Notes under the pieces: generated by a model | Database searches by the model: none | Told to the model about the DNA's origin: nothing | What the model saw: the letters and a program-made list of their open reading frames with translations, nothing else | Translations under genes and position numbers: made by a program | Shown: piece by piece, positions 284 to 56,291 of the stretch | How the letters are laid out: each line of letters begins with the position of its first letter | How positions within the stretch are numbered: position 1 is the first letter of the stretch | From: Lachnospiraceae bacterium | GTDB taxonomy: Bacteria; Bacillota; Clostridia; Lachnospirales; Lachnospiraceae | Direction: 5' to 3' | DNA: 64,000 nucleotides | Assembly: GCA_017470935.1 (NCBI GenBank) | Contig: JAFUXG010000059.1 | Span: 1 to 64,000, forward strand

Positions 284-2047
284 TCATCCTCCATAAGCCA
301 GAAGATATGGGATTATCCTAGTTGAACCCACATTATTACAAATTTCGATATCAGCAGCCACATCCCTCTTAGATATCAATCCTGCTGTCATGCAATATGC
401 CATTAATTCAATATTGTCCTTTTTAATAATATTAGCCAGATTTTCGTGACAGTATTTATTTGCAGAGTAATTGATCACTTTATCAACAGCCTTTAAGAAA
501 GATAATAAGGATATGTCAACGTCACTTAATACATCTGCCCTGCTTATTATTTCCATGGCTCTATTAAGGTATTCCCTTTGTCCGGGCCTGCTGCCATCCA
601 AGATAAATGGTGTTATTACAGCATGCTTTCTTTCATAGTATTTATCCCGGATATCCTTTATCTTGGATATATGAAGCTTTAACCTTAACTCTCTTAACTT
701 GTCCTGATTATCCCACCAGCATAAAGCCTCGTCCATTATCGCATCAGCATCAATGTCCAGCCGAAGCATATGATCTATCATCTTATCACAGTAAACTGCT
801 GAAGCTGCCGGCGCATGTTCAGGACAGACCACATACAAACAATAGGTATACACCAATAACATAGCCTGAAGCTTCTTTTCCTTTGAAAAAATCATATCAA
901 GACTTTTGATAACATTTGGTTTTAACAGCATATGACCATAATACCCGCAGTAATCCGCCAGTAAATATTCAACTGAGGATACACCACTGTCATCAAGCAT
1001 ACCATGATTATTCAGCTTATGATAATAATCATATTCTATCAAAGCAATATACAGATCATCTACTGCATTATCATATTCAACTCTATATCGGTATTTACCA
1101 GATCTGTTATTAATATCCTTTCTTGCTGTCTTGGTCTCTAAGACAGCATCCTCCCACGTTACCAAGGACTTTCCTGCTGCTTCATCAATCCGGCCATCCG
1201 AGCACAAAATATCCGATATTGATTCATCATTAACAATGGATCTTTGCCTTAACAGCCTATTATATATAAATATATTGTTTATTATAGACAGCCCCTTTAA
1301 GCTGCTTTCCTTAATTCCTTTAATAGCAGCAGAAAGCCTGTTGATGCATTTGATTGTATTGGATCCTGTATCATCATAATTATCATATATATGTTCTCCT
1401 GATATTCCGATCAAGAATCTGTAATAGCTGTTAATATAATTAAAAATATTGCCCATCAAAGCCTTTTCACGAACATTACCGGTCCAGTCCTTTTCTTCCG
1501 GTATAAGCCTACACTCCTTCAGATAGGCAAGCTCTTCAAAAAGCTTCCCAATTATATTCTTCGGTGTGTCAGATAACCCCATTACAAATTCAAAATTACT
1601 CACCTTAGCATCATAATTAAACACGTATGATACCTGAACATTTCCTGACATACACATGAACAATTTGTAGGGCTCTATGGAATAACCGGCATCAAGAAGC
1701 TTAAGTGCAGTATCATGCTCTTTTAAATATATTGCCATTACAACAGGAGCTGCAAAAACCGCATACATCTCCTCCGTGTGCCAGTGATCAATCTCAATAT
1801 GCTGTAATTCCATGTATCTTACATATCCGTCCTTATCAGTGATAAGCTCATCCGGATTCTCAAGCATATGAAGTACATGCTCCTTGGAATAGCCATCGGA
1901 TTCCATTGTCTGATCATTTGATGAGCCTGTAAGCATATCCCTTAGCGTATTGTTGAGCTCTTCAGGAACCGCTATATCAACCATATCCCTTTCAGCCGCA
2001 AAGCTGCAATGTATTCCATTAAGAGTATCCATACCAACTATATTCAT
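284..2047 (-). CDS. ankyrin-like repeat protein, paralogue A of three (unknown function)
   Basis: I do not recognise a named family. The 587-residue protein has no signal peptide or clear membrane segment. Residues 96-125 read like an ankyrin helix pair (motif MAIYLKEHDTALKLLDAGY), preceded by a short MLENPDE-type segment. The last ~50 residues look like two further ankyrin-type helices ending in IPYLLAY. The same three landmarks (ML-NPE, the AMPVAMA-like helix, terminal IPYLLAY) occur in the genes at 5141-6895 and 17515-19296, so the three are diverged paralogues of one locus. The start is the ATG at 2047, behind GGGAG. It is the last gene of a minus-strand run beginning at 9357 that also encodes an AAA+ ATPase, ClpP, a vWA protein and a MoxR ATPase. 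A scaffold or target-recognition role is inference only. Confidence 0.7.
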   Translation of the reverse strand: MNIVGMDTLNGIHCSFAAERDMVDIAVPEELNNTLRDMLTGSSNDQTMESDGYSKEHVLHMLENPDELITDKDGYVRYMELQHIEIDHWHTEEMYAVFAAPVVMAIYLKEHDTALKLLDAGYSIEPYKLFMCMSGNVQVSYVFNYDAKVSNFEFVMGLSDTPKNIIGKLFEELAYLKECRLIPEEKDWTGNVREKALMGNIFNYINSYYRFLIGISGEHIYDNYDDTGSNTIKCINRLSAAIKGIKESSLKGLSIINNIFIYNRLLRQRSIVNDESISDILCSDGRIDEAAGKSLVTWEDAVLETKTARKDINNRSGKYRYRVEYDNAVDDLYIALIEYDYYHKLNNHGMLDDSGVSSVEYLLADYCGYYGHMLLKPNVIKSLDMIFSKEKKLQAMLLVYTYCLYVVCPEHAPAASAVYCDKMIDHMLRLDIDADAIMDEALCWWDNQDKLRELRLKLHISKIKDIRDKYYERKHAVITPFILDGSRPGQREYLNRAMEIISRADVLSDVDISLLSFLKAVDKVINYSANKYCHENLANIIKKDNIELMAYCMTAGLISKRDVAADIEICNNVGSTRIIPYLLAYGG

Positions 2048-2106
2048 ATGCCATTTCTCCCGTTATCCATATCTTTTGACAATCCTTAATTAGAAATCAT
2101 TGCCGG

Positions 2107-3264
2107 CTAAGCCACCTTACAATACTTCTTGCAGGCCTCCACATACTTTCTATTTCCTGATTTGGTCATCAGCTTGATGAGCTCATCATCCTGATTAATA
2201 ATTCCGAATAATCTCTCAGAAAGCATGGGCTGCTTCATAAGCTCTGTCAGCTCAAATATATTTGTGACGGCTCTGTCTACCGCCTCTCTGCTTGACTTTC
2301 CCCTGACCTTATCTCCTAAGATCCTTCCCATATAATCTATAATAGACCATAATGTAGGAGCCTTATATTTATTCCATTTCGCAGCATATTCAGAAAGACC
2401 GACTCCCTTGAATACTTTCTCCAGATCCTTCATCTCACAGCCGATCTGGGACATTGCGTAATAATTCATGAAATCTATTGCAACCCTGTCAGACTTAATA
2501 AACTGGTTAATAAGCCCCACATCTACTGTCTCCGACATCTTCTCATATACATACAATGTGTTGCTTAGGTTCTCCCAGCCTCTGGTTGTGACAGGATCCA
2601 TGTTCTTCTTATCATCTGAAGCTACATATATATTACTGTGATTAGCCTTAAGATATTCAACTATGGCAGGATGAAATCCTCTCTCCTTGGCAAACTCAAG
2701 AAAATCCTCAGCCTTAAATTCAATAGAAAGCTTTCTAACCCTGTCTGTAAGTGCAGTATCTAGACTCCTGGCACTCTTGTTACACTCAGGGGGATTACCT
2801 GCCAGTACAATACACCAGCCCTCAGGAAGCTTATACTCTCCTATGTTTTTGGTCTGCAAAAACGCAAGCATTGTTGGTAATATAGTCTCTGAAACACAGT
2901 TAAACTCATCAAGCATAAGAATACCCTCATTATGCCCCTTGTCACATTCCTTCATGACAGCAGCAATGATCTCAGACATGGTGAATTCTGTATATCTTCC
3001 CCCATCCTTAAGTTCCTTGATAACAGGAAGACCCAGCAGGGAATTCCTTGTATGGTGGGTAAGAGAAAAGCTCACATAACCCAAGGAAAGCTCTTCAGCC
3101 ACCTGCTTGACAATTGCCGTCTTGCCAATGCCTGGCCATCCCAAAAGAAAGAACGGCAGACGGTTCATCTCATCAATGTAATATCTTCCTTTCTTATCCT
3201 TTGCCAGATAAGTTCTGATTCCTGTCAACATCTCATTCTTTGCTTCTCTGATTCCTACCTTCAT
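2107..3264 (-). CDS. MoxR-type AAA+ ATPase
   Basis: This 385-residue AAA+ ATPase is of the MoxR/CoxD type, which usually works as a chaperone or remodelling partner of a vWA-domain protein. Walker A is GWPGIGKTA near residue 45, Walker B is ILMLDEF near residue 115, and sensor 1 is the LAGNPPE stretch. A lid region follows. The first ATG (3270) sits only two bases after AGGAG, so the ATG two codons later (3264) is the better start. The neighbour upstream (3449-5059) encodes the matching vWA protein, the classic MoxR/vWA pairing. The family call is firm; the substrate is unknown. Its position between paralogue A and the vWA gene suggests the three work together. Confidence 0.9.
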   Translation of the reverse strand: MKVGIREAKNEMLTGIRTYLAKDKKGRYYIDEMNRLPFFLLGWPGIGKTAIVKQVAEELSLGYVSFSLTHHTRNSLLGLPVIKELKDGGRYTEFTMSEIIAAVMKECDKGHNEGILMLDEFNCVSETILPTMLAFLQTKNIGEYKLPEGWCIVLAGNPPECNKSARSLDTALTDRVRKLSIEFKAEDFLEFAKERGFHPAIVEYLKANHSNIYVASDDKKNMDPVTTRGWENLSNTLYVYEKMSETVDVGLINQFIKSDRVAIDFMNYYAMSQIGCEMKDLEKVFKGVGLSEYAAKWNKYKAPTLWSIIDYMGRILGDKVRGKSSREAVDRAVTNIFELTELMKQPMLSERLFGIINQDDELIKLMTKSGNRKYVEACKKYCKVA

Positions 3265-3448
3265 AATCATCTCTCCTTTTTATAATTCTCTTCACTTAAT
3301 ATTTCTTAAAGTGTTTTTCTTGTATGTTTCTTTTTACATGTTTTCTTATTACATAATATTTTCTTCTCTTATTGTTTTTCTCTATTTTCTTTCCCATGCA
3401 TCCCGATAAACGATGCAGATTGCCAGACCAGATAAACTCTGCAGGCTT

Positions 3449-5059
3449 CTAGAAAAAAGGCAGGTCATCATCATTGATGCCTACATTTCTTCCTGGATTC
3501 CCAAGATAATCCACATAGTTATTCTCAACTTCAAGCCTTACAGGTGTTATCCAGTCAGGGATTCCTATATATTCATTGCAGTTGCCCTGTTCATCAAAGC
3601 AGTCATTCTCCATTACAAAATATGTTTTAATCCCAGGATCCTCTTTCGGATATTCTCCACAGCCGTCTGTTAGATATATCAGCGCATCCACTGTCTCTCC
3701 CGATTCAATGTACTCCTTCACCTTGTCAAATACCGGCCTGAAATCCGTACCTCCAAAGCCATGTAGCTGAACCCTTTCACCAAAGCTTCCAAACTCATCT
3801 GCGCTGCCGTACTCATGCTCTCCGCATATATCAGCATCACATTCCAGCAGAATAACCTTTTGAAAGCTGCCAGCCCTTTCAATTCCCTCCAGCAGATTGT
3901 TTGTTTCTCTTATAAACTGTGATGCAGTACTGCCGCAGCATGATCCGCTTGTATCAATGGCTATCACAATAGTGTTAAGACAAAGTCTTTCATTCTCGAT
4001 CAATGGCTCCACAAGGGGCATATCCTGATACATGTCAAGTCCGAATTGGTACATCATAGTATCTATACTGTCAGGATCCTCATAACTGGTCTCATTAATA
4101 TGTTCAAGCTCCTTAAGCATATCCGAATAATTATATCCATTGTTATCTGCCGCCTCCACCAGACCATCAGCACCACTACTTCCATGCCCATAGTCAAATC
4201 TTTTCATATCAGAATCAAAGGACATATTAATAATAACATTGACATCACCATCAATGCTGTCCCTGCCGAAGGCATACATCCTCGCCTTTCCCCAAAGCTC
4301 CTTCAGCTGCTTCATTAACCTGCGAAGCTCCTCCTGCTGTTCACTGTCTAATTCAAGCCTGATATACTTATCCTTTCCTGAAGCTCCCTTACCTCTGCCA
4401 TCCTTATCATTTTTGTCCTCATTCTTCTTATTCTTTTCACAGTCAGCTATATACCAATACCTATGGTCATCCATTTCATGCTTGCACATTCTCCGCATGA
4501 TCCGTCTTCGCACATTCTTATCAGCCACGCCCTTTAAATATGTATTAAATGGAAACTCACTTTCCGTCTCTTCTCCGCCAAGCTCCTTTACCAGATTCTT
4601 AGAGTCATCTACTTCAAAGTGGTATGAAATTCTTAAGAGCTCATTCAGCACATTATCCACACAGTAGTCCATCAGTCCCCAGGCCAGCTTTTTCGATGAA
4701 AAATCATTTCTCATCTCATAATGTCCAAGCAGCCCATGGATAAGAATATGTAACAGCTCTCTCCTAAGCATATGCTCCCCTGACATGCCATCATAACCCT
4801 GAGTATATATGCGGCATACATACTCAGGGTTATAGCAGATTGCCATGCCATCTGTAGCCAGCCTTATATTCTCCTTAACAGGAATCCTTCTAAGCTCTGT
4901 CAATGCAAATGCAAGATTGGGATAAGTAAGCTTAAGATATGCTGCCTGCATATCAAGTATCTCTCCTGCACGTACAAGAAGCTCCCTGGTTTTTGCAGAT
5001 AATCTTTTGTCTGTCTCTTTAATTCTTGTGAGCTTAACCTCTGTATCCTTTTTCTTCAT
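3449..5059 (-). CDS. vWA-domain protein with DUF2201-type N-terminal metallopeptidase-like region
   Basis: The 536-residue protein has two parts. Near residue 108 the motif HILIHGLLGH has zincin-like histidine spacing but no glutamate after the first histidine; this suits the DUF2201 'putative metallopeptidase' N-terminus, perhaps inactive. A charged Lys/Asp/Gly-rich linker follows at about residues 210-235. Near residue 368 comes the MIDAS motif DTSGS, completed downstream by GGTDF and YLTDG, so the vWA metal site is intact. The first possible start is a GTG at 5068; I chose the ATG three codons later, although neither has a strong ribosome site. With the MoxR ATPase at 2107-3264 it forms the usual ATPase/vWA couple, in which the ATPase is thought to drive assembly or remodelling of targets held by the vWA domain. 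Confidence 0.85.
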   Translation of the reverse strand: MKKKDTEVKLTRIKETDKRLSAKTRELLVRAGEILDMQAAYLKLTYPNLAFALTELRRIPVKENIRLATDGMAICYNPEYVCRIYTQGYDGMSGEHMLRRELLHILIHGLLGHYEMRNDFSSKKLAWGLMDYCVDNVLNELLRISYHFEVDDSKNLVKELGGEETESEFPFNTYLKGVADKNVRRRIMRRMCKHEMDDHRYWYIADCEKNKKNEDKNDKDGRGKGASGKDKYIRLELDSEQQEELRRLMKQLKELWGKARMYAFGRDSIDGDVNVIINMSFDSDMKRFDYGHGSSGADGLVEAADNNGYNYSDMLKELEHINETSYEDPDSIDTMMYQFGLDMYQDMPLVEPLIENERLCLNTIVIAIDTSGSCCGSTASQFIRETNNLLEGIERAGSFQKVILLECDADICGEHEYGSADEFGSFGERVQLHGFGGTDFRPVFDKVKEYIESGETVDALIYLTDGCGEYPKEDPGIKTYFVMENDCFDEQGNCNEYIGIPDWITPVRLEVENNYVDYLGNPGRNVGINDDDLPFF

Positions 5060-5140
5060 ATATACCACGTATGATCTGTCTGCAAACTGCCATCCAGATC
5101 ATTTTTCCTTTCTCCCGAAGCCTTACGGGTAATTTGTCAT

Positions 5141-6895
5141 TTACACACAGCCCTCTTCATATGCCAGAAGATATGGGATCATCTTCACGGCACCCAGCTC
5201 AATCCCCTTTTCTACTAGATCAGGAATACTATCACCTGTTATGATGCCCTTTCTTATTAACACTATGACAAGCTCAGGCAGATCCCTCGATATCAGTCTG
5301 TCGATTCCTTTGGAGTAATGCTTTAATATATCAAAGTTTATAACACCATCTATCTCTTCAAAATTACTCCGTATATATAATTCCTGTGACTTGGTATAAG
5401 CGGTGTTAATATATTCCAGCTCGTTTATCAAATAATCTCTGAAAGCCTTTACCTTGCAGTCTAGTATTAATGGTCCAAGCATCTTGCGTGTATTTATCTC
5501 CAATTCCCGTCTTATTTCTTTGACAGCTTTAAGCTCAAAGTTTTTCATCATTATCTTTTTCTCACTCAGCCCATATAGTCCTGCATCAAAATCACTGGCT
5601 CTTCCCCGAACGATGCTTACATAAACACGCATACTGTCCCTTAATATATTTTTTTCTTTGATGCCGTAATCCACCATGAGCTTTACAAGATTTTTGAGGT
5701 ATGCCTTGCCTCCCTTATCCGTCCTGTCTTTGCTTCTGACATACTGTATATACATGAGCTTTATCAAAACATGCACACTGCTCTTATGTCCCTCTGCAAG
5801 CTTTTCGATGCTTCTAATATACCTAATGCTATAAGGCTGTATATTTCCCAGGGCAGAATCCATCTGGCACATCCAGTATTCCAGCATCCCGCTAAGAAGG
5901 TTTTCATTGGATTTCAAAGCTCTTTTAGATGAAGCATTCTTATCCTCTAACTGTCTCCATATGATACCGGTATACATCAGATAAAAGCTTTCTATAAGCC
6001 TTCCCTGCATGCTCAGCGTTCTGCCAAAACGTATATTTAATAAAAATGGATCTGTCATATCAAGGGGATTGCCAGAAAGCTCTTCAAACATACACATATC
6101 CAGTTTACAGATATCGTCAGAATAATCTGCTCCTGGGTCAATCATTATGTTGTCAATATTAAGGCCAGCCAGTCTGGCAAGCTGGGAATTTAATCTTTTG
6201 AAGCATTCAGTATATAGCTGCTGCATATCCCCAGAAAATATCATGCTGCCCGAATCAATGTGTGTGGCAGCTCCTTTGTTTCCCTTCTCGCATGCAAGCA
6301 TATGAGTATACTTATAATAATTATCCATATTATATGTTACATTTGAAAATACAGTTACTTTATCCTTGTTCTTAATAAGCTCACTCCATACACCATCCAC
6401 TACCCATTTTGGTGCATCGGCCATACAGGTCATAAGCTCAAGGTTAGTCAGATTATTATATCTGCATATATTAAGGTCGTCATGAGAAACAAGGCGGCAA
6501 ATATTAGTACGGAAAGCAAATGGAAATGTCATTTCCCCTTCTATGTGATATGCCTGAAAATGCTCCATGGGAGCATAATCAAAGCCTGACTCAATAAGTT
6601 TTCTTGCATACGAAAATTTTCTGAGATATACCGCCATTGCCACCGGCATCGCAAAGATCATCCATATTTCCCTTTTAACCGTACTCTTTGAATCACGTAT
6701 AAAAATAAGACAAAGCCTTCCCTGATCATCCAGCACCATCGTCTCCGGATTTTTGAGCATCCTTGAGACGGCTGCTCTTGAATGCTCTTCAGGGTCACCC
6801 TTAAGTATTTCCTCTATCTGGAGAGCCTGGGGCTCAACAAGATTATTATTCTCATCCATCAAAGCAAACTTCGCCAGCTCTGCTAATACAGACAT
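5141..6895 (-). CDS. ankyrin-like repeat protein, paralogue B of three (unknown function)
   Basis: Second member of the local family (584 residues). It shares with the genes at 284 and 17515 the MLKNPET segment, the ankyrin-like helix around MPVAMAVYLRKFSYARKLIE, a D-(S/T/A)-P motif followed ~10 residues later by EL, and the C-terminal IPYLLAY. Overall similarity by eye is low between these landmarks, so the copies are old. Start choice: GAGGTG precedes ATGGATATG; the second ATG (6895) has the better eight-base spacing. The gene lies between clpP and the vWA gene, with gaps of 121 and 81 bases, so it is probably in the same transcript. No catalytic motif is visible. Confidence 0.7.
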   Translation of the reverse strand: MSVLAELAKFALMDENNNLVEPQALQIEEILKGDPEEHSRAAVSRMLKNPETMVLDDQGRLCLIFIRDSKSTVKREIWMIFAMPVAMAVYLRKFSYARKLIESGFDYAPMEHFQAYHIEGEMTFPFAFRTNICRLVSHDDLNICRYNNLTNLELMTCMADAPKWVVDGVWSELIKNKDKVTVFSNVTYNMDNYYKYTHMLACEKGNKGAATHIDSGSMIFSGDMQQLYTECFKRLNSQLARLAGLNIDNIMIDPGADYSDDICKLDMCMFEELSGNPLDMTDPFLLNIRFGRTLSMQGRLIESFYLMYTGIIWRQLEDKNASSKRALKSNENLLSGMLEYWMCQMDSALGNIQPYSIRYIRSIEKLAEGHKSSVHVLIKLMYIQYVRSKDRTDKGGKAYLKNLVKLMVDYGIKEKNILRDSMRVYVSIVRGRASDFDAGLYGLSEKKIMMKNFELKAVKEIRRELEINTRKMLGPLILDCKVKAFRDYLINELEYINTAYTKSQELYIRSNFEEIDGVINFDILKHYSKGIDRLISRDLPELVIVLIRKGIITGDSIPDLVEKGIELGAVKMIPYLLAYEEGCV

Positions 6896-7016
6896 ATCCA
6901 TCACCTCGCAAATCCACTATCCTTCTTGTAAGCTTCTCTCCATCACGGCTTACGATCCATTCCTGTTCTCTGCTCTCTATCATGGCTTACAATCCATTCC
7001 TGCTATCTTCTCTCTA

Positions 7017-7586
7017 TCACGGCCTGCCATCCTCTCCCCAAATGCTGTCAACAATTCCATAATCAACTGCCTCCTCGGCATTCATCCAATGGTCAAGCTC
7101 TGTATCCTTTGAGACATCCTCAATCTTCTTGCCACAGTTACTGCTTAGTATCTCATTAAGAACACTCTTTGTCGTTTTCATATGATCAGCAGCCACCATA
7201 ATATCCGAAGCCTTTCCCTCCATGCCTCCTGAAGGCTGGTGTATCATCACCTCTGCGTGAGGCATGATAACTCTCCTTGTCCCTCCCGAAAGAATAACTG
7301 CTCCCATGCTTGCAGCTCTGCCGATACATATAGTGCGTACAGCAACTCCCTTGGCTGCAACTGCCTGCATCATATCATAGATAGCAAGTCCTGCACTTAC
7401 AGAGCCTCCCGGGCTGTTAATATAGATGCTGATATCCTTCCCTGACGTCTCAAGCATTGCAAGCTGCGCAATAATAGAAGCCGCCATCTCGTCCGTAACC
7501 TCTCCTGTCATATGAATGATCCCATGATTCAGATTATCTGAAAAAACATCCTTAGTCCCTTCCTGTGCTATTGGATTCAATACCAT
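7017..7586 (-). CDS. clpP: ClpP-family serine peptidase (accessory copy)
   Basis: A 189-residue ClpP subunit, the self-compartmentalising peptidase that degrades proteins fed by an AAA+ unfoldase. The triad is intact: Ser in GRAASMGAV, His in MIHQPSGG, Asp in ELDHWMNAEEA. It is slightly shorter than the usual housekeeping ClpP, lacks a recognisable propeptide, and has Val-Ile-Leu where housekeeping copies have a more hydrophobic pocket segment after SMGA. The start has GGAGG five bases upstream. It is not beside tig or clpX; instead it sits 22 bases after a CbxX-type AAA+ gene in the accessory system, so I take it to be a dedicated second copy whose partner may be one of the local ATPases. 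Confidence 0.92.
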   Translation of the reverse strand: MVLNPIAQEGTKDVFSDNLNHGIIHMTGEVTDEMAASIIAQLAMLETSGKDISIYINSPGGSVSAGLAIYDMMQAVAAKGVAVRTICIGRAASMGAVILSGGTRRVIMPHAEVMIHQPSGGMEGKASDIMVAADHMKTTKSVLNEILSSNCGKKIEDVSKDTELDHWMNAEEAVDYGIVDSIWGEDGRP

Positions 7587-7608
7587 AATTCATTCCTCCT
7601 TAAAATTA

Positions 7609-9357: not shown

Positions 9358-9480
9358 GGCACTTCTCCTTATGATCAATCACTGTCGGCTTAATACTTGT
9401 ATATAATGTTCGTGGCTTCAATACACGCATTATATATTGTTACTTATCCTGTGCTTTCTTGTTTCTGTTTCCATACGCGT

Positions 9481-9521
9481 ATTATATATGTCCGGTCACG
9501 GAAAATTTGTTCATGTATGGA
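9481..9521 (-). promoter_or_regulatory. system promoter 1 with palindromic operator
   Basis: On the minus strand a perfect TATAAT (9481-9486) lies 21 bases from TGAACA (9508-9513), which is the right half of the palindrome TCCATACATGAA (9510-9521). An A/T tract lies just upstream of it. The palindrome is centred about 41 bases before the expected start, where class II activators bind, and there is no consensus -35. It drives the gene run 9357 to 284 and lies between it and the WYL regulator gene (9648). The same layout recurs at 13010, 19338 and 20662. Confidence 0.65.
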
Positions 9522-9647
9522 CATTTTGAAATTTTTTTGATATATTTTAGATAAATTTATTAAAAGCGGTCATTTATGCAGCCATTCAATTACAATACAG
9601 TTTTATCAGTTATTTACGATCAAATTATAATCAGGAGGAACATTACT

Positions 9648-10970: not shown

Positions 10971-10978
10971 TGGGATTA

Positions 10979-12976: not shown

Positions 12977-13009
12977 AAAACAAACCTCCCTTAAAATATG
13001 ATTTTCTAT

Positions 13010-13050
13010 ATCATATCCTATGGAAGGCTGTAATTTTGTTCATGTATGGA
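13010..13050 (-). promoter_or_regulatory. system promoter 2 with palindromic operator
   Basis: Minus-strand TATGAT (13010-13015) is preceded at 21 bases by TGAACA, part of the operator TCCATACATGAA (13039-13050), with a run of A's further upstream. It matches the layout at 9481, 19338 and 20662 and drives the AAA+ gene 10979-12976. Confidence 0.6.
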
Positions 13051-13088
13051 TTTTTTCATATTTTTTTATTTCCTGACCCTAACCCCTA

Positions 13089-13739
13089 TCAGAAAATCGA
13101 TATCATATTTCCTTCTCCTGTCATGCCCTCAATTATCCTATCGATATCGCGCTGTGTAAGAACCTCTTTGTTCTCAGTATTCCCTTGGGTCTTTGGCACC
13201 ATGCTCCTTAACAGTTTGCTATTGCCGGTAACGAAGCCCTTATGAACAGCATACTTATAGCTTTTTGACTTATCATCCATGTTTCTGTCAAAGAGAATAC
13301 TGATTATCCCTCCATTCATTGTATACATCTGCATAACGAAATTGTCCGATTCCTCTATCACCTCATATATGTATTCGCACACTTCTTTGCAGTTTCTGTA
13401 AAAAAGGCTCTGATCAAGCTTATATACAAAACCGTTAGATGCCAGCACCTCATGGGTACCGCTGTTATATGTAATAGCATGAACTATGCCCATACCAAAT
13501 TCTGCAAGATCTTCTTTTTTAATATCTGCCACCTCAGTTATGGTACCTTGTTCAGTTATAGTAACTACCTCGAAGGTAACTCCCCAGTAATAATACCTAT
13601 ATATATCCGTCTTCAGATTATACTGGGCTGTCTTATGGGCAAATGGACCAGTAACATACCTTACATAGCAGTTTGCCATTTCCTTATCCTTATATTCTTC
13701 AATCGGCCATATAAATGCCAAACACTTATAAGTTTTCAT
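13089..13739 (-). CDS. hypothetical protein of the AAA+/vWA system
   Basis: I do not recognise this 216-residue protein. It is soluble, rich in Tyr and Val, and starts MKTYKCLAFIWPIEEYKDKE. The composition suggests a beta-rich fold in the first 150 residues and a short helical tail. GAGAGG lies upstream of the start. It is the last gene of a six-gene minus-strand run that begins at 19296, and its stop is 39 bases before operator 13039-13050. No homologous neighbour is visible in the window. A function specific to the system is likely only from context. Confidence 0.6.
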   Translation of the reverse strand: MKTYKCLAFIWPIEEYKDKEMANCYVRYVTGPFAHKTAQYNLKTDIYRYYYWGVTFEVVTITEQGTITEVADIKKEDLAEFGMGIVHAITYNSGTHEVLASNGFVYKLDQSLFYRNCKEVCEYIYEVIEESDNFVMQMYTMNGGIISILFDRNMDDKSKSYKYAVHKGFVTGNSKLLRSMVPKTQGNTENKEVLTQRDIDRIIEGMTGEGNMISIF

Positions 13740-13858
13740 TACGCATCATCCTCTCTTTTTTATAGTACTGCCTCTTACAAAGCTGCCTTTTTATCGCCAC
13801 TGTTAGAACCATCATTAGCATAAATGCTTTAGTCAGCATTATCATTATTATCAATGCT

Positions 13859-14761
13859 TTAGTCACCATTATCATCATTGTTATCTTCAGCGCCATCATC
13901 TGTTTGTTCAGATAATTTCATAAATGCATCAAGGTAAACAGATTTCCCGTTATAACAATCAGGACTTACAAGTCCCTGATGATGTCCCTTGGTTGTGAAT
14001 ACCTTAGTCTCTCCAGCGCTTATATTATTCCCGTTGAACCATATTGGCAATTCTTCTTCATTTTTAATAATAGCATATTTAATGTTGTCAGACCAGCTAT
14101 ATGTTTCCATACTTCTTATTGCTTTTGGAAAATATCTGAAATCAAGCCTGCAGTCATTATCTTCCTCAATTCCATATTTCATATAGAGAACACTGTCCTG
14201 GAACATTCCGGAATGAAACTCCGGAATAACAACTCCTGCATAATCTCCAAGATGATATGCAAGCTTATCCCCGGAATTGATATTAGATACCTCTATATAT
14301 ACTGCATCTTCGTAATTCTTTACGATATCTATCATCCTTGCATTATCCCTGTCTTCTAACTCCCTTAATTCCATATGTCCCTTTTCTATAAGTTCGGACA
14401 CATGCTTGACATATTCATCCGCCTCAAAACCTCCAACTGCCATCTTCGCAGCTGTTGAAATGATCTTATCAAGGCAGCTGTCTGAAGCATCTGCTCTATG
14501 AGTCAATTCCTCTTTATATTCAGGAATAACATAAGAATATGGCTGCTTCTCCATATATTTAAGTGGACATACATATATCGTATTACGCGTCTCATAAGTC
14601 AATATATCATTTTCAAGACTGTAGTTCTCAACATGTGACGTATGACCAATATATGTATTTTTCCCAAGCTTTGGGTGATAATCTGCTGTACCTGAGAGAT
14701 TATATCTCTCGTCATATACATATAGACTCCAGTTTGTCATATTAACTGTTGGTTTATTCAT
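13859..14761 (-). CDS. hypothetical protein of the AAA+/vWA system
   Basis: An unrecognised 300-residue soluble protein (AGGAGG upstream of the start). The first ~75 residues are rich in Tyr, Asn and Thr and look beta-stranded; a helical centre with many acidic residues follows; the last ten residues are a tract of Asp, Asn and Glu (DDGAEDNNDDNGD). It lies 12 bases after the gene at 14774, so the two are surely co-transcribed. Nothing in it suggests catalysis. Downstream, between it and the next gene, there is a short repeat of ATTATCATTATT-like bases at about 13838-13880 that corresponds partly to the Asp-coding tail. Confidence 0.6.
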   Translation of the reverse strand: MNKPTVNMTNWSLYVYDERYNLSGTADYHPKLGKNTYIGHTSHVENYSLENDILTYETRNTIYVCPLKYMEKQPYSYVIPEYKEELTHRADASDSCLDKIISTAAKMAVGGFEADEYVKHVSELIEKGHMELRELEDRDNARMIDIVKNYEDAVYIEVSNINSGDKLAYHLGDYAGVVIPEFHSGMFQDSVLYMKYGIEEDNDCRLDFRYFPKAIRSMETYSWSDNIKYAIIKNEEELPIWFNGNNISAGETKVFTTKGHHQGLVSPDCYNGKSVYLDAFMKLSEQTDDGAEDNNDDNGD

Positions 14762-14773
14762 ACTTAAAACCTC

Positions 14774-15160
14774 CTATTCCCATATATCCCCACCCAAAGC
14801 TCTATACAAATATAACGGCACATAAGGAAAACTCTGGTATTCCTCACGTATAATATCACCGGTATTTCTGTAATATCTGTAAGTAATAGCTAATCGCTCT
14901 ATCTCTTCATCTATACATAAATGAATTGCAATATCCTCATTATCCTCTGTAACCCCTGCATAAAAACGAACGGCAACACAGCTGACACGTCCACCATCTT
15001 TAATTCTAAGAACCGTTACTTCATTACCGTAAGTATGATCAGGCCCATCTATAAACTCAGCCTTCTCTATATCATCAGAAATCGAAAGAAATTGCAGATC
15101 TTCCAAATTAACCTCAATGTATTCAGGATCATTACAATGCGGAAACGAAAACAACTTCAT
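14774..15160 (-). CDS. hypothetical protein of the AAA+/vWA system
   Basis: An unrecognised, acidic 128-residue protein beginning MKLFSFPHCNDPEYIEVNLE. The start is uncertain: the ATG at 15160 is 13 bases from the only ribosome site (GAGGTG), while an in-frame TTG two codons upstream (15166) has better spacing. Upstream extension to 15223 would place the ribosome site inside the gene and is unlikely. It probably forms one transcript with 13859-14761 (12-base gap). The sequence alternates short hydrophobic and acidic segments, as in small beta-rich binding domains, but I cannot assign a fold. Confidence 0.55.
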   Translation of the reverse strand: MKLFSFPHCNDPEYIEVNLEDLQFLSISDDIEKAEFIDGPDHTYGNEVTVLRIKDGGRVSCVAVRFYAGVTEDNEDIAIHLCIDEEIERLAITYRYYRNTGDIIREEYQSFPYVPLYLYRALGGDIWE

Positions 15161-15306
15161 TATCAAACTTATCACCTCAAACATATAATGGATTCTTATT
15201 ATACACAGTGTAACACTGATCACTTACATTAGCACTCAACTGTTAGTTGAATAAACTTATTATTCTCCACAATCATCTGTTTTGTCAGTTATGCATAAAA
15301 CTGTTG

Positions 15307-16470
15307 TCAGAGCTTTTGTCCACATTGTACAATCTCCGGTACTATGGGACATCCACCCATACACGCTGTACGTTTCTCACATTCTTTACAGCTCATCAGA
15401 AAATGATTTCTAAAACCATCAAACAATTCACTATCCCAGGCTTCCTTGATGCTGTTTTTTCTAAGGCCAACTGCCCATCTTTCACTCTGATTGTCAAAGC
15501 TGCAGGGCATCATTTTCATGTCCGCTGATATGTATGCAGACCATCTGCCACCCTCACATGTATCCATGCTGTCAGGATCCACATTACTCATACCAAGCAG
15601 CGCCGGGACAGTACAGGAGTCGAAGCCTATCTTGAATGGAAAGCTGTGTTCGTCAATATATTCTATAAGCTCATGAAACTCTTTGTTATTAGATGTTATC
15701 ATCTCTTCTTTCGTGCCCAGTCCCACCGGCTTATGAAGCAGAAAGATTATTGCATTGATATCATCCGGAAATGAGCTGTACTCCTCATCGGCATCACCAT
15801 AATATCTATTATCATTATTATGTTTATCATTTCTATTGTCTTCCGACGCATTAGCGCTATATATAGATGATTTCTTTAGTCTGCAAATTGCTTCATGAAC
15901 ACTTGACTTAGACAGTACATAGTGAATATTCGTCTTAACTCCTGCCGCAATCAGCATATCTATTGCTCTTAGGGTATATTCACTTCTATACCAGCTTACT
16001 GCCACCGCACCGCAATATCTTTTGCATAGCCTAGCAATATCTTCAGTCATACCATAACCAGATGTGGTGAAATTAGGAACTATTCCTGCAGCTTTGCATG
16101 ATCTCAATATACCTTCAAACTGCTCATGCTGATCCGGATCTCCGCACCCTCCAAGGGCTATCTGGAAAGTCTTTCCTTTGCACTGATCCACAATACTTTC
16201 AAAATCCTTCAATGACATATTATCTTTATTCGAGTGAAGACCATCCTGATAACAGCCGATCCCTGCTTTCACGCAAAGTCCTGTCTCTCCATGCGTACAA
16301 TGCCCCATGATTCCCACATCAAGAAGCTCAGGGAAACTCGCCATGAACGGATCTATTCCGGTATCTCTTCTCCTTCCATTCTCATCTGTTTCCAGAATGC
16401 CGGTTCTCATATATCTCCCCGTCTTCTCATTAAAACAAGAAATAAAATCCTTTTCCTTTTTAATTTTCAT
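15307..16470 (-). CDS. radical SAM/SPASM-type protein with atypical cluster motif
   Basis: A 387-residue iron-sulfur protein. The putative cluster-binding cysteines are in MGHCTHGETGLCVKAGIGCY, a C-x7-C-x6-C spacing instead of C-x3-C-x2-C. GGCGDP about 45 residues later corresponds to the GGEP glycine motif of radical SAM enzymes. The C-terminus has a SPASM-like set (CSFDNQ, then CKECEKRTACMGGCP), which normally holds extra clusters in peptide-modifying enzymes. An Asn/Asp-rich insertion lies at about residues 215-235. I start it at the ATG at 16470, because the upstream GTG overlaps the GAGGTG ribosome site. In this locus it may modify one of the small or paralogous proteins, but no precursor peptide was found. 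Confidence 0.82.
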   Translation of the reverse strand: MKIKKEKDFISCFNEKTGRYMRTGILETDENGRRRDTGIDPFMASFPELLDVGIMGHCTHGETGLCVKAGIGCYQDGLHSNKDNMSLKDFESIVDQCKGKTFQIALGGCGDPDQHEQFEGILRSCKAAGIVPNFTTSGYGMTEDIARLCKRYCGAVAVSWYRSEYTLRAIDMLIAAGVKTNIHYVLSKSSVHEAICRLKKSSIYSANASEDNRNDKHNNDNRYYGDADEEYSSFPDDINAIIFLLHKPVGLGTKEEMITSNNKEFHELIEYIDEHSFPFKIGFDSCTVPALLGMSNVDPDSMDTCEGGRWSAYISADMKMMPCSFDNQSERWAVGLRKNSIKEAWDSELFDGFRNHFLMSCKECEKRTACMGGCPIVPEIVQCGQKL

Positions 16471-16498
16471 GCGCTGCACCTCATAACATATGATCTCA

Positions 16499-17302
16499 TC
16501 AATCCCACAAGTCCCAGAAATACTTTGAAAACAAATTAAAGAATTCCTCCCTGCATTTATCTCTGTAAAAATATATATAATGGTTCCTCAGACTATGTTC
16601 ATAATACAATTTTTGAAAATCAGGATAAAGTTCAGGAAAATCCGAAGGACCATACCATGTATACGCACCCTCTTCCTCTTCTTTCTGTTTCTCTTCCTCA
16701 GATTTAAGACCATCTCCGTACATACCGTATTTTTTTTTAAAATCTTCCAGTACTTTATAATATTCTTCGTCATATTCATTTTTCATTGAGCAGGTATCAG
16801 GATTCATTTCCCTAAGAAGAAATATCATCCTATCCAATATCTCTTTCCACTCATCAGCTTCCTGCGGCACTTCTGCACTCTTACTGAAATAACACTGTGA
16901 ATTACCTGGATATGAAACATTAAAATCAGGAAAGCCCCTAAGGTTATCCTTCATATATGTAAGCATCTCAGGCATAATCTTCATAAACCATGAATGAATA
17001 TTATGGGCATCCACATATGAAAAGCCTCGTTCTGCCCTTTCTCTTCTGCATCTTTCCTCAGCCTCATCCATCTCCTTGCAGTAATCTATATAATGATTCA
17101 ATCTGCTTATCAGCTCATCAGTAAGCTCCTTTGTATCAAATGGATAATCGGCATTATAATGCTCCTTGAACATTAACATCCGTTTCTTAGAAGGCTTCTT
17201 TTCAAATATTTTATATTTGAAACAATCCCTTATAAGCCTATCCGTCTTACTTCTAACATTTTTATTATCCTTTATTTCAATGTATCTTGAATATATATTC
17301 AT
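16499..17302 (-). CDS. hypothetical helical protein of the AAA+/vWA system
   Basis: An unrecognised 267-residue protein, strongly charged and helical, with many Glu, Lys and Tyr residues and a possible coiled coil at about residues 80-100 and 195-215 (KSEEEKQKEEEEGAY). The start at 17302 is supported by GGGAGG nine bases upstream; the open frame continues to 17374 without another site. It is the gene before the radical SAM gene (28-base gap). No catalytic motif or membrane segment is seen. Confidence 0.6.
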   Translation of the reverse strand: MNIYSRYIEIKDNKNVRSKTDRLIRDCFKYKIFEKKPSKKRMLMFKEHYNADYPFDTKELTDELISRLNHYIDYCKEMDEAEERCRRERAERGFSYVDAHNIHSWFMKIMPEMLTYMKDNLRGFPDFNVSYPGNSQCYFSKSAEVPQEADEWKEILDRMIFLLREMNPDTCSMKNEYDEEYYKVLEDFKKKYGMYGDGLKSEEEKQKEEEEGAYTWYGPSDFPELYPDFQKLYYEHSLRNHYIYFYRDKCREEFFNLFSKYFWDLWD

Positions 17303-17514
17303 AACCTTTGTACCTCCCATTTTTTGATAATTAAAAATACCTATCCACATACATATCTCTAAGATAAAATGCAATGTACATCAGGGCAATACGTTTCAGC
17401 TTATCATCGGATAATAATATCTTATCTTCACAGTTATCATCCTCCTCTTCTTTCTTCAGCTAAATATAACATATTGCTATATTCTCTTCATCAACCCTAT
17501 AGTTTGAACTGCAA

Positions 17515-19296
17515 TCATCTCTCCTTATACGCCAGCAGATAAGGAATATAACAAAAATATCCTTTGTCAATGCATGTATCAATAACTACATCAATATTCT
17601 CTCGCGCCACAAAGCCTTTAGAAAGCAGCAGCACAAACCTATCTACCCTTTGCTGTTTCAATATGTCAATAAATGAATCATATCTGCTGTCAAGCACTGA
17701 ATATCCCACCACCTTATCTATACAGCCGGCAAGTCTAACACATTCCTCCACATATTCCTCATAACCCTTATAATATTCATTATCAGTAATAGAAATCCCA
17801 TCCACTATCTCATCTAACATTTCATGATAGTACTTGTCCTTATCCCCTGTTATTACAAGCTTATCCGGCCATTTCCCGCCTCTCAGCCTTACCTGTTCTC
17901 CAATATCATCAATTGAAGCTCTAAGGGATCTTATAGTAATGCCTTTGTCAATATTAGTTTCAACATAAAAGTCTTCATCAGCTATGCCATACTTTAATAA
18001 GTTATCAACTATAATACGTCTGTATCGTAAAGCTGCTTTTCCGCTCCTATGTGTATTAACAATATATTGCATGTACATGGCTCTTGTAATATTATCTAAT
18101 TTGAAATCATACTTGTCATATATCTTCATGGCCATACCGAGAAAGCCAAATGAAAAGGGAGCATTTCCAAGCTGTTTTGCACAGTTTATACAAATATAAT
18201 CCAGCATATCTTTAAGTTTATCCCTATTATCATTCCAATCTTCCGCATTGCCTGTATTTTGCTCGTATTGAAAGCACAATAGTTTAATACACAAGGAATA
18301 ATATCGTTCCATAAGCTCATCGGCTATCAATCTTTCCGAGTAGAACTTAGTGCCTTTATATATAGAGCATTTATTCATATAGCAAAGATCATTAAACCAT
18401 TTTGACCCGATCTTATAAGTAACATTCATTACATTTGCCATTTTCACGATATCAAACACAAACCTGCTATCCTTATATAGCAACAGTTTATCTAACTGAT
18501 CGCATAACCTTTCAATACTTCTGAAAAACTCATTCATATATATCCTATGGTTATCATTGTTTACCTCGCCCCTTCCGGCATAATAATAACTGCTTAGATT
18601 ATCGCACACATCAGCAAAGACCACATTCCTGCCCCGTACCTTAAGAAGCTCATCGTACATGCCATCACATATATGGTCCGGAGAATCAACAAAGCATGTA
18701 GCAAGTTCAATATTGGATATATCAACAAAGTGATCCATTCTAATCGTATATAATTGCTGTTTGCTAAGATATTGTATTTCTTTCTCTGTTCCCATGGGAT
18801 AACTTATCTCATAGCACTTGAATCTTTCAAAGGGACAGTATTCATATCCAGCGGACACAAGCTTATCTATAATGGAGGAAGCTTCCATTCCTTTAAGATG
18901 AATTGCCATGGCTATAGGTGTCGCAATAGTTATAACAAATGTTACCAAGGGATCTCCCAACACCTTTCTGTCATAATTATTGTTCTTCTCAATATAAAGA
19001 AGCTTACCCTTATAGTATGGAACTATATTCTCTGGTTTCTCAAGCATGGCTAATACACTCTCCTTGGAATATGCCGGGTTATCTTCCATACAAAGCCTCT
19101 TGAGTCTTTTCTTAAGTCTTGAGGAATACCTGTTTCTTCGGCAGTTTTCTTCATTTCTTCTTGTCATCTCCTCATATACTGAGTTACCGGATGCCTCCAT
19201 AAGCTTATTCCAATTAATAATGTTATCCTTCCAGAAGTCACTATGTCTGTCAGGAAGCTTCTTTTCAGTTTTATTACAACAACAGGTTATAGCCAT
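17515..19296 (-). CDS. ankyrin-like repeat protein, paralogue C of three (unknown function)
   Basis: Third member of the local family (593 residues). It shares MLEKPENIV, the helix AMAIHLKGMEASSIIDKLVSAGYEY, the D-S-P...DEL motif and the terminal IPYLLAYKER with the genes at 284 and 5141. It alone has a Cys-rich start (AITCCCNKTEK) and an Arg-rich stretch near residues 45-65. I place the start at the ATG at 19296, eight bases after GGGAG; a TTG at 19311 is also open. It is the first gene of the run 19296-13089 and is read from promoter 3. Having paralogue C lead one operon, and A and B in another, suggests three interchangeable or co-assembling subunits. Confidence 0.7.
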   Translation of the reverse strand: MAITCCCNKTEKKLPDRHSDFWKDNIINWNKLMEASGNSVYEEMTRRNEENCRRNRYSSRLKKRLKRLCMEDNPAYSKESVLAMLEKPENIVPYYKGKLLYIEKNNNYDRKVLGDPLVTFVITIATPIAMAIHLKGMEASSIIDKLVSAGYEYCPFERFKCYEISYPMGTEKEIQYLSKQQLYTIRMDHFVDISNIELATCFVDSPDHICDGMYDELLKVRGRNVVFADVCDNLSSYYYAGRGEVNNDNHRIYMNEFFRSIERLCDQLDKLLLYKDSRFVFDIVKMANVMNVTYKIGSKWFNDLCYMNKCSIYKGTKFYSERLIADELMERYYSLCIKLLCFQYEQNTGNAEDWNDNRDKLKDMLDYICINCAKQLGNAPFSFGFLGMAMKIYDKYDFKLDNITRAMYMQYIVNTHRSGKAALRYRRIIVDNLLKYGIADEDFYVETNIDKGITIRSLRASIDDIGEQVRLRGGKWPDKLVITGDKDKYYHEMLDEIVDGISITDNEYYKGYEEYVEECVRLAGCIDKVVGYSVLDSRYDSFIDILKQQRVDRFVLLLSKGFVARENIDVVIDTCIDKGYFCYIPYLLAYKER

Positions 19297-19337
19297 ATAA
19301 ATATCTCCCAATATGCTTTACTATTAACATATCTCTT

Positions 19338-19377
19338 ATTATACATATTGAGGATCACATTTTTGTTCATGCATGAA
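19338..19377 (-). promoter_or_regulatory. system promoter 3 with palindromic operator
   Basis: Perfect TATAAT (19338-19343) lies 20 bases from TGAACA. The operator TTCATGCATGAA (19366-19377) is a perfect 12-base palindrome here, followed upstream by an A-rich tract. It drives the run starting with the paralogue C gene. The -35 region holds the palindrome rather than TTGACA. Confidence 0.65.
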
Positions 19378-19415
19378 TATTTTATATACTTTTTTCTTTT
19401 GTCTATTGGGACGAA

Positions 19416-19440
19416 ACAAAAAGCAGGATAATAATCCTGC
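19416..19440 (-). terminator. terminator after the tRNA-like RNA
   Basis: The hairpin GCAGGAT/ATCCTGC (19423-19440) is followed on the minus strand by TTTTTGTTT. It ends the transcript that comes from 20655 through the DIP1984-like gene and the structured RNA, before the next promoter at 19338. Confidence 0.75.
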
Positions 19441-19659
19441 CTTTAATAAATATATACTTACAAATCTGCCTACAGTACAGCCATGCGGAAAATCTAAGGT
19501 TAATCAGTTTAACACCGGACCGTGCTCATGGATTTCAGCATTTGATCCTAAGGGACCAATGCCTATATACTCCTTACCAATTGACTGAAAAGAATTCAAG
19601 CAGTGATAATTAATCTTTCAATAGTAAATGTTAACCCAAAATATAAAACCGTTGAATAC

Positions 19660-19732
19660 TGGCTCCTTTTATGGGAATCGAACCCATGCCTTCGCCTTAA
19701 CGGGCAATGATCATCCACTAATCTGAAAAGGA
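19660..19732 (-). tRNA. tRNA-like domain 2 (Asn-like, six-base anticodon loop)
   Basis: The acceptor TCCTTTT pairs perfectly with AAAAGGA, followed by G and an encoded CCA (19660-19662). The T arm is perfect (ATGGG, loop TTCGATT, CCCAT). The D arm is weak (GAT/ATC, loop with AGTGG). The anticodon stem TTGCC/GGCGA leaves a six-base loop CGTTAA: GTT is present but one base is missing before it. Acceptor and discriminator resemble tRNA-Asn. I take it as a tRNA mimic inside the larger RNA, not a decoding tRNA. Confidence 0.6.
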
Positions 19733-19739
19733 ATTTGGG

Positions 19740-19810
19740 TATCTCTTAGAGGACTCGAACCCCTTACACCTTGGGCTAACCAAGTGCTCTACCGATTGAG
19801 CTAAAGAGAA
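19740..19810 (-). tRNA. tRNA-like domain 1 (shortened anticodon loop, no CCA)
   Basis: The acceptor TTCTCTT pairs with AAGAGAT except for a T-T first pair. The D arm is canonical (GCTC, AATCGGTA, GAGC), and the T arm is AGGGG, loop TTCGAGT, CCTCT. The anticodon stem CTTGG/CCAAG leaves only a five-base loop (TTAGC); with four stem pairs the loop would be seven and read TAG, which would be odd without a long variable arm. The 3' end reads ACCCA instead of NCCA. It stands seven bases before domain 2. Confidence 0.55.
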
Positions 19811-19903
19811 TTAAACTGCAGCATAACCCCACTGCAGGGGAAACCGAATTAAAGACTTTCGTACTGCAGGCAGATACTGATAAGTATTACCTCAAACACT
19901 CAT

Positions 19904-20566
19904 TTAATCAATCTCAACAAATGTTGTAGCATTAGATACCTTTATCTGTGTATCCAGCTCAGTAAGAAGAGCATCCCTCTTTTCCTTGAGTTGTTCTGCT
20001 TTCTTCTGTATATCAAGGGGATCCACCAGTTCAGTAGTATTCTCCTTGACATAAGCATCTACTACATCTAGCGGCTTATCATTCTTCACCTTGGAATCCT
20101 TGCCTAGAATACTAAGTCTCATATTCTCTGCAGTTGACTGGAGCTGGCGGTTCTTAAGATCTATTCTCTGTACCATATCCTCATACTCACCAGTCAGCTT
20201 TTTGTATAGCATTCCTTCAAAATCAGCTTCTGATCCAAAGGAGCCAATGCCTTTAATTCTGCTTCTCAAAGAAATTGCGGCTGCAACGGTAAAACTGCCA
20301 TAGCTGGTTTCTATCATTGTGGCTGCATTAGATGCAACAATTGCGGCATCAATCTTTGCAAATCTTGTAATAAGATCCTCAATCTGCTGGTAAGCAGAAG
20401 AAACCTTCTTTGCAAACTCATCTCTTGTCTGCTGCGCGTTAAGCACCTTCTCCTCATTAGGCTTGACAGAATCCAAAAAGCTGGCATTACCAATCTTGTC
20501 ACCTATTTTCTTGATCAACAGATCTCTCTCATCCAGTGCCTGTGTTACCAGTAATTTCTCACTCAT
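19904..20566 (-). CDS. DIP1984/septicolysin-like protein
   Basis: A 220-residue soluble, mostly helical protein. The pattern of an N-terminal ALDERDLLIKKI helix, IEDLITRFAKIDAAIVASNAAT in the middle, and LDTQIKVSNATT at the end resembles the DIP1984/septicolysin family, whose molecular role is not established; I match it from memory of the family pattern, not a search. It is longer than the usual ~150 residues, with an insertion around residues 150-180. AGGAGG precedes the start. The 5' leader (about 90 bases) holds a perfect 7-bp hairpin at 20621-20646, and promoter 4 lies at 20662. The structured tRNA-like RNA follows its stop by 30 bases, so protein and RNA are made from one transcript and may form a complex. 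Confidence 0.6.
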   Translation of the reverse strand: MSEKLLVTQALDERDLLIKKIGDKIGNASFLDSVKPNEEKVLNAQQTRDEFAKKVSSAYQQIEDLITRFAKIDAAIVASNAATMIETSYGSFTVAAAISLRSRIKGIGSFGSEADFEGMLYKKLTGEYEDMVQRIDLKNRQLQSTAENMRLSILGKDSKVKNDKPLDVVDAYVKENTTELVDPLDIQKKAEQLKEKRDALLTELDTQIKVSNATTFVEID

Positions 20567-20661
20567 ACTGATACCTCCTGTAATATTATCTTACTTATTA
20601 TTACTATAGCATAGCGTTTTAAACCACGTCACTAACTCTGTGGTTTAATGAACTGGTTATC

Positions 20662-20701
20662 ATTATACACACCCACAGTTCTTTTTTTGTTCATACATGA
20701 A
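20662..20701 (-). promoter_or_regulatory. system promoter 4 with palindromic operator
   Basis: TATAAT (20662-20667) stands 20 bases from TGAACA, and the operator TTCATGTATGAA (minus strand, 20690-20701) has an A-rich tract upstream. It reads the DIP1984-like gene and the tRNA-like RNA. Spacing is identical to promoter 3. Confidence 0.65.
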
Positions 20702-23488: not shown

Positions 23489-23572
23489 TGTAATAATACC
23501 TCCTACTAGTAAATAATATTTACCCGGACTGTATGCAGCAGTCTGCGATACCTTGTCCAAAGTCTGTTTATC

Positions 23573-23602
23573 ATTATAGCACAAAATGTCCAAAAAACAA
23601 AA
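23573..23602 (-). promoter_or_regulatory. probable ppdK promoter
   Basis: Minus-strand TGCTATAAT is an extended -10 (TATAAT at 23573-23578), with TTGTTT about 16 bases upstream. It gives a leader of about 80 bases. The rest of 23489-23791 is AT-rich and holds only the terminator of the next gene. Confidence 0.45.
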
Positions 23603-53925: not shown

Positions 53926-53953
53926 GTTGCCTGCGCCTCCATGTTATCATTCC

Positions 53954-54932: not shown

Positions 54933-54971
54933 GTTTGTTATCCCCTATTCTCTTCTTTATTTTTCAACTCA

Positions 54972-56269: not shown

Positions 56270-56291
56270 CAGGCTTCAGAAAGGAAGGATC

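Follow-up and report, generated by a model that had tools for sequence, protein, structure and literature searches.

A predicted structured RNA with exchangeable tRNA-like cassettes and a constant partner protein in phages and bacteria

Ro60/Rsr proteins and their Y RNAs (YrlA) are encoded in rsr-yrlBA-rtcBA RNA-repair operons (PMC7790460), and a TROVE protein with a tRNA-like partner has been named for phages too. GOLLD and ROOL are large structured phage and prophage RNAs that occur close to tRNA islands; tRNAs are sometimes embedded in the linkers of GOLLD, and ROOL has no known protein partner (PMC12286853). Phage-encoded tRNAs, in turn, evade tRNA-cleaving defences (PMC10264068, PMC11555353). 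Here we describe an island at the start of a 64,000-nucleotide stretch of DNA from a Lachnospiraceae bacterium, referred to as the window (C67:1-64000; source genome 3.06 Mb, 77.75% complete). The conserved heart of this island is a pair that the initial annotation of the DNA had not singled out, namely u220, a protein of 220 amino acids, and an RNA encoded downstream of it. Comparative analysis showed that this RNA, whose structure is predicted from covariation, has u220 as its constant partner, carries exchangeable tRNA-like cassettes, and is common to phages and bacteria.

The u220 gene (19904..20566, minus strand) encodes a helical protein homologous to T5.085 of phage T5, and the stretch 3' of it is conserved among its relatives. 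The predicted RNA of ~400 nucleotides (19468..19871, minus strand) has its ends set by a closing helix, P1, in which 19861-19871 pair with 19468-19478. Inward from P1 lies an H-type pseudoknot (19815..19840, minus strand; CCCC/GGGG and CTGCAG/CTGCAG), a long-range helix of ~7 base pairs joins the two halves of the RNA, and the cassette is held between the 5' and 3' halves. The 3' core (GAAATCC...GGCTG; 19464..19571, minus strand) scored 78 bits (E 6.7e-20) in its own genome with a covariance model, R1, in which the window is one of 55 training rows. The window has two cassettes, tRNA-like domains 1 (19738..19810) and 2 (19663..19732), both on the minus strand, which reached 49.0 and 42.5 bits with the Rfam tRNA model (gathering score 29). 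ARAGORN called the first tRNA-Leu(tag), made no call for the second, and reported no tmRNA in the window. Only tRNA exceeded the gathering threshold of Rfam 15 in this stretch and in the scanned bacterial loci, the scaffold itself having no match there, and the RNA is apparently undescribed.

The evidence for this structure comes from 81 loci, comprising the window and 80 bacterial relatives, the best 80 of 181 places in the genome collection, across which u220 identity is 61-74%. The 3' core follows u220 in 75 of the 81, and 72 of these 75 have a matching 5' element that pairs with it; the six without a core include loci at contig ends, one interrupted by a run of N (L185) and some with altered sequence. 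The structure was scored on 55 of 70 distinct cores, where paired cells made up 97.5% (91.2 when shuffled), 70 cells had changed on both sides (shuffled mean 20.1; at most 8 when slid), and the covariation score was 0.311 versus 0.183. Three helices of the 3' core covary, and a fourth, with two pairs, gave no covariation. For P1, 715 of 770 cells were paired, a count that fell to 245 on sliding by one and to 272 on sliding by two. The pseudoknot helix that reads CTGCAG/CTGCAG in the window occurs elsewhere as GTAAC/GTTAC, GCAGC/GCTGC, GACAGC/GCTGTC, GGCAGG/CCTGCC, GAGAGGC/GCCTCTC and GCGGC/GCCGC, and the long-range helix varies likewise. Among 200 family genomes, 10 have a u220 relative, full or near-full in 8, and so do 4 of 388 phylum genomes, the source genome counted. 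R1 also matched in 10 of the 200 family genomes: the same eight, G135 and, weakly, G046.

Since the RNA lies between u220 and the next gene of the island, paraC, and ends ~90 nucleotides before the paraC operator, it could be read as a cis-acting leader that regulates paraC transcription or translation. This we judge highly improbable: with P1 the RNA is closed into a molecule of its own, different genes follow it in the mapped relatives, and downstream of it paraC has a separate promoter element (19338-19376).

The cassette is the variable part of the RNA. ARAGORN reported a tRNA-like insert in 57 of the 81 loci, under 26 labels that range from Thr to Pyl and include four two-letter anticodons. 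Relatives have one cassette, or none by ARAGORN, and some of the loci without a call have a shorter RNA. The calls include a 7-nucleotide loop in 50 of 57 and a CCA end in 13 of 57; the letters of the T-loop are almost fixed, and the anticodon is one of the more variable positions.

The u220-RNA pair is also present in phages. The protein matches phrog_1491 (E 5.5e-35), 589 phage records (115 over at least 80% of the query) and 99 viral places, with some phage records labelling the homologue 'tail fiber protein'. R1 gave 61 matches at E <= 10 in 71 viral sources, all but 2 of them downstream of u220 on the same strand; 59 of the 71 sources have a match after u220, 44 at E < 0.01, counts that include near-duplicate contigs and two bacterial-type contigs. 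The ends of the viral RNAs were paired as P1 in 37 of the 59 (median 15 pairs versus 10 when shuffled). T5.085 is a member of the u220 family (hidden Markov model E 1.7e-48), and in the stretch downstream of it the ends pair over 21 bases and a pseudoknot and core can be seen by eye; this RNA was not detected by R1, and the T5 record has no RNA annotation there. T5 also encodes a putative Clp protease, T5.042, and ClpP matches occur in the u220 flanks of 8 of 68 viral loci (L205, L206, L214, L218, L222, L224, L225 and L243). Two viral contigs, L195 and L196, hold a bacterial-type u220 (65%) together with the RNA (98 and 92 bits), and are possible recent vehicles.

This distribution suggests an alternative in which u220 and its RNA form a phage ribonucleoprotein (RNP), for example for tRNA provision or processing, that is left behind, or carried as cargo, in bacterial islands without a host function, its RNA-repair neighbours being other phage genes. 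Consistent with this, the viral copies are numerous, the radical S-adenosylmethionine (SAM) protein of the island matches 171 phage records, tRNA genes, in some cases perhaps the cassette, occur in 47 of 68 viral loci, a family that we read as integrase-like lies near 5 of 83 bacterial loci, and L195 and L196 carry the bacterial-type copy. The island is, moreover, accessory: a congener (G188) keeps GlyS, PocR-like, NlpC-like and ppdK genes (names by our reading) in the same order as beside the island, with no island gene in 13.9 kb beyond ppdK, and searches of the whole G188 genome gave no match to u220, paralogue C, the vWA protein or the RNA. However, the 61-74% identity and the RNA have been kept in many bacterial loci, the u220-RNA unit of the window has an operator in common with 13 other minus-strand genes, and the phage collection gave no match to paralogue C. 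We therefore regard a phage remnant as rather unlikely.

The neighbourhood of u220 provides a setting for the pair. The open reading frames (ORFs) of 83 loci were clustered and one member per family was compared with Pfam, with counts given per 80 named loci. A repair-type family lies near u220 in 36 of 80 loci and in none of 22 control loci (367 kb), a difference with a Fisher p of 2e-5 among loci that are not all independent. These families comprise a ligase with PHA02142 OB and RNA_ligase domains (15 loci), three phosphoesterase families (10, 9 and 5), PARG (10), PIN7 (9), Thg1 (7), a T4-type RNA ligase (5), RtcB (4) and a kinase-like family (3). An XRE-type helix-turn-helix family, under the Pfam cut-off, was found in 40 of 80 loci and was likewise absent from the 22 controls; for comparison, a general ABC family was found in 8 of 80 and 5 of 22. 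Ligase, RtcB, Thg1 or kinase alone lies near 23 of the 80. Of the 23 loci that have 10-kb flanks on both sides, 14 had a repair-type family, as had 28 of 64 groups once u220 proteins were collapsed at 95% identity. A T4-type ligase over cut-off occurs in only 1 of 200 genomes, where (L264; G172:C13) it adjoins a kinase-like gene, with no u220 match in 15 kb.

We propose that the core of the island is an RNP of u220 and the RNA that would serve as a platform in tRNA damage or conflict, a reading whose functional part is drawn from sequence and gene neighbourhood and to which we give an even chance of being right. In this proposal u220 would bind the RNA scaffold, the cassette would be displayed as a bait, sensor or reference to the enzymes by which tRNA is cut or altered in phage conflict, and repair enzymes would act beside the RNP.

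In the window, the u220-RNA pair is one of four minus-strand units. The island comprises 15 protein genes between 284 and 20566, 14 on the minus strand and one on the plus strand in the ORF list, and is followed by ppdK (20852-23593). Its low side is the end of the contig and not a gene boundary, because base 1 of the window is the start of contig C67. The initial annotation had described about 16 genes bounded by ppdK, in four minus-strand units with a plus-strand WYL regulator and a tRNA-like RNA; the units, the WYL gene, the RNA and the ppdK border hold, with the gene count, the second tRNA-like domain and the open low side as corrections.

Reading with transcription, unit 1 consists of cbxX1 (7609..9378; an N-terminal part of ~320 amino acids and a CbxX/SpoVK-type AAA domain, TIGR02881 E 6.9e-45, under its cut-off), ClpP (7017..7586; PF00574 E 2.8e-60), paralogue B (5141..6904), a VWA-like protein of DUF2201 type (3449..5068; PF09967 E 7.9e-12), a MoxR-type AAA ATPase (2107..3270; three AAA families over cut-off, bpMoxR at 23.9 bits under its cut-off of 27) and paralogue A (284..2047). 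The WYL-domain regulator (9576..10970, plus strand; PF13280 E 4.5e-11) is divergent from it. Unit 2 is cbxX2 (10979..12976), with an N-terminal part of ~370 amino acids and a CbxX-type AAA domain that matches CbbX structures at E 2.6e-32 over 375-662. Unit 3 holds paralogue C (paraC; 17515..19311), u291 (16499..17374), a SPASM radical SAM enzyme recognised by Pfam/NCBIfam (15307..16479), u149 (14774..15223), u300 (13859..14761) and u216 (13089..13739), and unit 4 is u220-RNA; units 1 to 4 are all on the minus strand. The paralogues, of ~590 amino acids each, end in IPYLLAY and a few residues, and B is 22% identical to A and 25% to C. When the window proteins were compared with Pfam and NCBIfam, u220, u291, u300, u149, u216 and the three paralogues had no Pfam match at cut-off, nor did u149, or u216 at cut-off, match any family. 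PADLOC, run on 10 proteins with u220 and four small ones left out, gave no full-length system-protein match, only partial AAA matches, WYL matches and one weak radical SAM match. A second cbxX1 relative is present in the same genome (G000:C46:3907-5202; 31% over 148-588). Elsewhere in the window, the AT-rich stretch 52891-58637 (GC down to 0.29) has, by our reading of its ORFs, two ATPase-like genes (344 and 352 amino acids) flanking a plus-strand group resembling membrane proteins.

Each of the four units is preceded by a palindrome (TTCATGYATGAA-like), and 18-28 nucleotides beyond it stands a TATRAT box. These operator-promoter elements, all on the minus strand, lie at 9481..9521 between unit 1 and the WYL gene, at 13010..13050 (unit 2), at 20662..20701 (unit 4) and at 19338..19377 (unit 3); the extents of units 1 and 3 are predicted, the latter from strand and spacing. 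The composite pattern of palindrome and box, which was composed only after the four window sites had been seen, has 8 matches in the 3.06-Mb genome, and the reversed pattern has 0. Taken by itself, and with up to 2 mismatches allowed, the palindrome is not clearly commoner than chance in the window (32 matches versus a shuffled mean of 25.2). One outside match (C29:27806) directly follows a PF00149 phosphoesterase gene that is 42.7% like one adjoining u220 in L095, and the unit behind it includes a gene whose product is 64.8% like a second phosphoesterase-like protein from L095, the latter without a Pfam match. A second (C29:37761) is beside a cluster of 21 tRNA genes, a third (C5:5240) precedes a unit whose third gene encodes a VTNSSSSSY protein, and the remaining one is in C15. 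The 21 tRNA genes (G000:C29; L050:2781-7211) lie between the operator copies C29:27806 and C29:37761. Thus the earlier claim that the island is under one regulator is borne out for the common element before all four units; that the WYL protein binds these predicted operators is what we infer. Through this one operator the WYL regulator would turn on the RNP, the two CbxX ATPases and ClpP, MoxR-vWA, the radical SAM enzyme and the three paralogues, and the AAA, ClpP, MoxR-vWA, radical SAM and paralogue proteins would remodel or degrade material captured by the RNP. The AAA, ClpP, MoxR-vWA and radical SAM genes of the window are best seen as a local effector set under the same switch.

We then asked which of these genes accompany u220 elsewhere. 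By tblastn, relatives were found in the 80 loci for WYL (5), u291 (5), the radical SAM enzyme (4, one a short stretch), clpP (3), cbxX1 (3), cbxX2 (2), moxR (2) and vWA (2). Radical SAM relatives (58-60%) immediately precede u220 in L191 and L192, in L134 one lies no more than 9 kb from it, and a u300 relative (58%) is 2 kb upstream of u220 in L095. In L129, CbxX, ClpP and WYL genes are consecutive, 7-10 kb from u220, and WYL and ClpP genes are near u220 in L123. In L261, from G135, the terminal part of cbxX1 is followed by the first part of moxR (55.6%), the C-terminal residues of u220, an RNA whose insert resembles tRNA-Ile, and a phosphoesterase gene; as judged by these fragments, this locus is a decayed relative that links the AAA genes to the RNA. 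Proteins of the VTNSSSSSF type adjoin the radical SAM gene in L134:3-209 (a cut piece), L191:8487-8861 and L192:2617-3084, and the VTNSSSSSY protein (L047:6955-7857) is behind an island operator in the window's own genome; VTNSSSSSF/Y proteins are a possible substrate of the radical SAM enzyme.

These loci also bear on a further alternative, in which four unrelated units under one stress regulator form an ordinary defence or stress island, the RNA and the AAA machines not cooperating. vWA relatives are widespread (107 of 200 genomes), and MoxR was the sole other window gene met in 29 vWA loci with short flanks and in 12 of these re-read over 12.8-19.9 kb; such pairs without other window genes, and the small number of u220 loci with AAA genes, are what this alternative would lead one to expect. 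It is nevertheless improbable in our view, given the cbxX1, moxR and u220 remnants that adjoin the RNA in L261, the CbxX-ClpP-WYL genes near u220 in L129, the WYL and ClpP genes in L123, the radical SAM gene adjoining u220 in both L191 and L192, and the outside operator that precedes the unit with the L095-like protein. The fixed gene set that the initial annotation had put forward did not survive this comparison: besides the low counts above and the vWA loci, where no other window gene than MoxR was met, a relative of paralogue C was seen in none of the other family genomes (1 of 200 positive, its own), and in other fetched loci a profile built from the three paralogues reached no more than marginal matches (best E 6e-4, L159). 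Its view of an RNA-linked machine in translation or phage stress keeps the RNA component and the RNA- or tRNA-stress setting, as seen in the repair families, without the fixed 16-gene machine. The exact set that it listed was not repeated in the u220 loci; what recurs is u220 and the RNA with a mosaic of partners, among them some window genes (radical SAM, CbxX-ClpP-WYL, MoxR, u300 and u291).

Several observations weigh against the RNP platform proposed here. Comparison of the predicted u220 structure (AlphaFold2 model, pLDDT 91.3) gave no hint of RNA binding. The 80 loci, being the best of those found, are mostly from Lachnospiraceae with some close kin. ARAGORN found no insert in 24 of the 81 loci, and the anticodon excess is modest (0.167 versus 0.098 differences per site in 30 non-independent close pairs). 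The repair-type families were picked by us after clustering, and the 22 controls were unmatched for island type and omitted both the own-genome loci L047, L049, L050 and L099, of which L050 and L099 have one phosphoesterase-like gene in common and L099 a further one, and L264, which had been fetched around the sole T4-type ligase over cut-off. No repair family was seen in 44 of the 80 loci, and 57 of the 80 have a flank shorter than 10 kb; the window has no RNA ligase, kinase, RtcB, Thg1 or other repair-type family, and PF09511 was not found in its genome (77.75% complete). AAA, MoxR and vWA matches are rare near u220.

We further suggest, more tentatively and with doubts that outweigh our confidence, that u220 and its RNA may represent a new, ancient class of RNP in phages (T5 included) and bacteria, with a swappable tRNA-like cassette as bait, that is wired to RNA repair and, here, to AAA, ClpP and MoxR-vWA remodellers under one WYL switch, such that RNA damage and protein remodelling would be one response. 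If the cassette is a bait or sensor, phages and bacteria would have a common RNA-based answer to tRNA-cutting defences, which would explain why tRNA genes, RNA ligases and the u220-RNA pair keep company, and u220 would gain a likelier role than 'tail fiber protein'. A covarying RNA with a constant partner, the protein being in hundreds of phage records including T5 and the RNA having no Rfam entry that we could find, is accessible in standard laboratory phages.

Among known systems, GOLLD and ROOL gave no Rfam match in the sources scanned; the u220 RNA is shorter than GOLLD and, unlike ROOL, has a constant protein partner. The Skipping-rope RNA (RF02924, 67.6 bits) starts 10 nucleotides after the u220 homologue of Brevibacillus phage Jenst (L090:6619-6696), beside and not inside the core found by R1, and had no match in the window or the scanned Lachnospiraceae loci. 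The window resembles the MoxR-vWA ternary conflict systems (PMC7159879) in its pair of a MoxR ATPase and a vWA protein; this vWA protein is of DUF2201 type, and neither 'DUF2201' nor 'ClpP' appears in the main text of that source. A third component (VMAP, iSTAND, FtsH or beta-propeller) had no Pfam match in the 15 window proteins, where the paralogues match nothing and could include a divergent one. The phage tRNAs that evade tRNA-cleaving defences are, like the proposed cassette, an answer to host attack on tRNA, and differ, by our comparison, in not being held in a scaffold with a partner protein.

The closest likeness is to Ro60/Rsr and Y RNA, which also combine a protein and a small RNA with a tRNA-like domain, encoded by genes that adjoin RNA-repair enzymes. 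Y RNAs likewise join a stem formed by the RNA ends to a variable module. The u220 RNA differs in its pseudoknot and matches no Y-RNA family, and u220 is without a Pfam match at cut-off. Ro operons contain rtcB, whereas RtcB is near the 4 u220 loci counted above and is not in the window (RtcA was not sought). We considered the pair as a Ro60/Rsr-Y RNA member and rejected this, because TROVE (PF05731) was looked for and not found, with 0 matches in the 77.75% complete genome and none among the 15 window proteins. The u220-RNA pair would work like a Ro/Y-RNA repair platform from outside that family.

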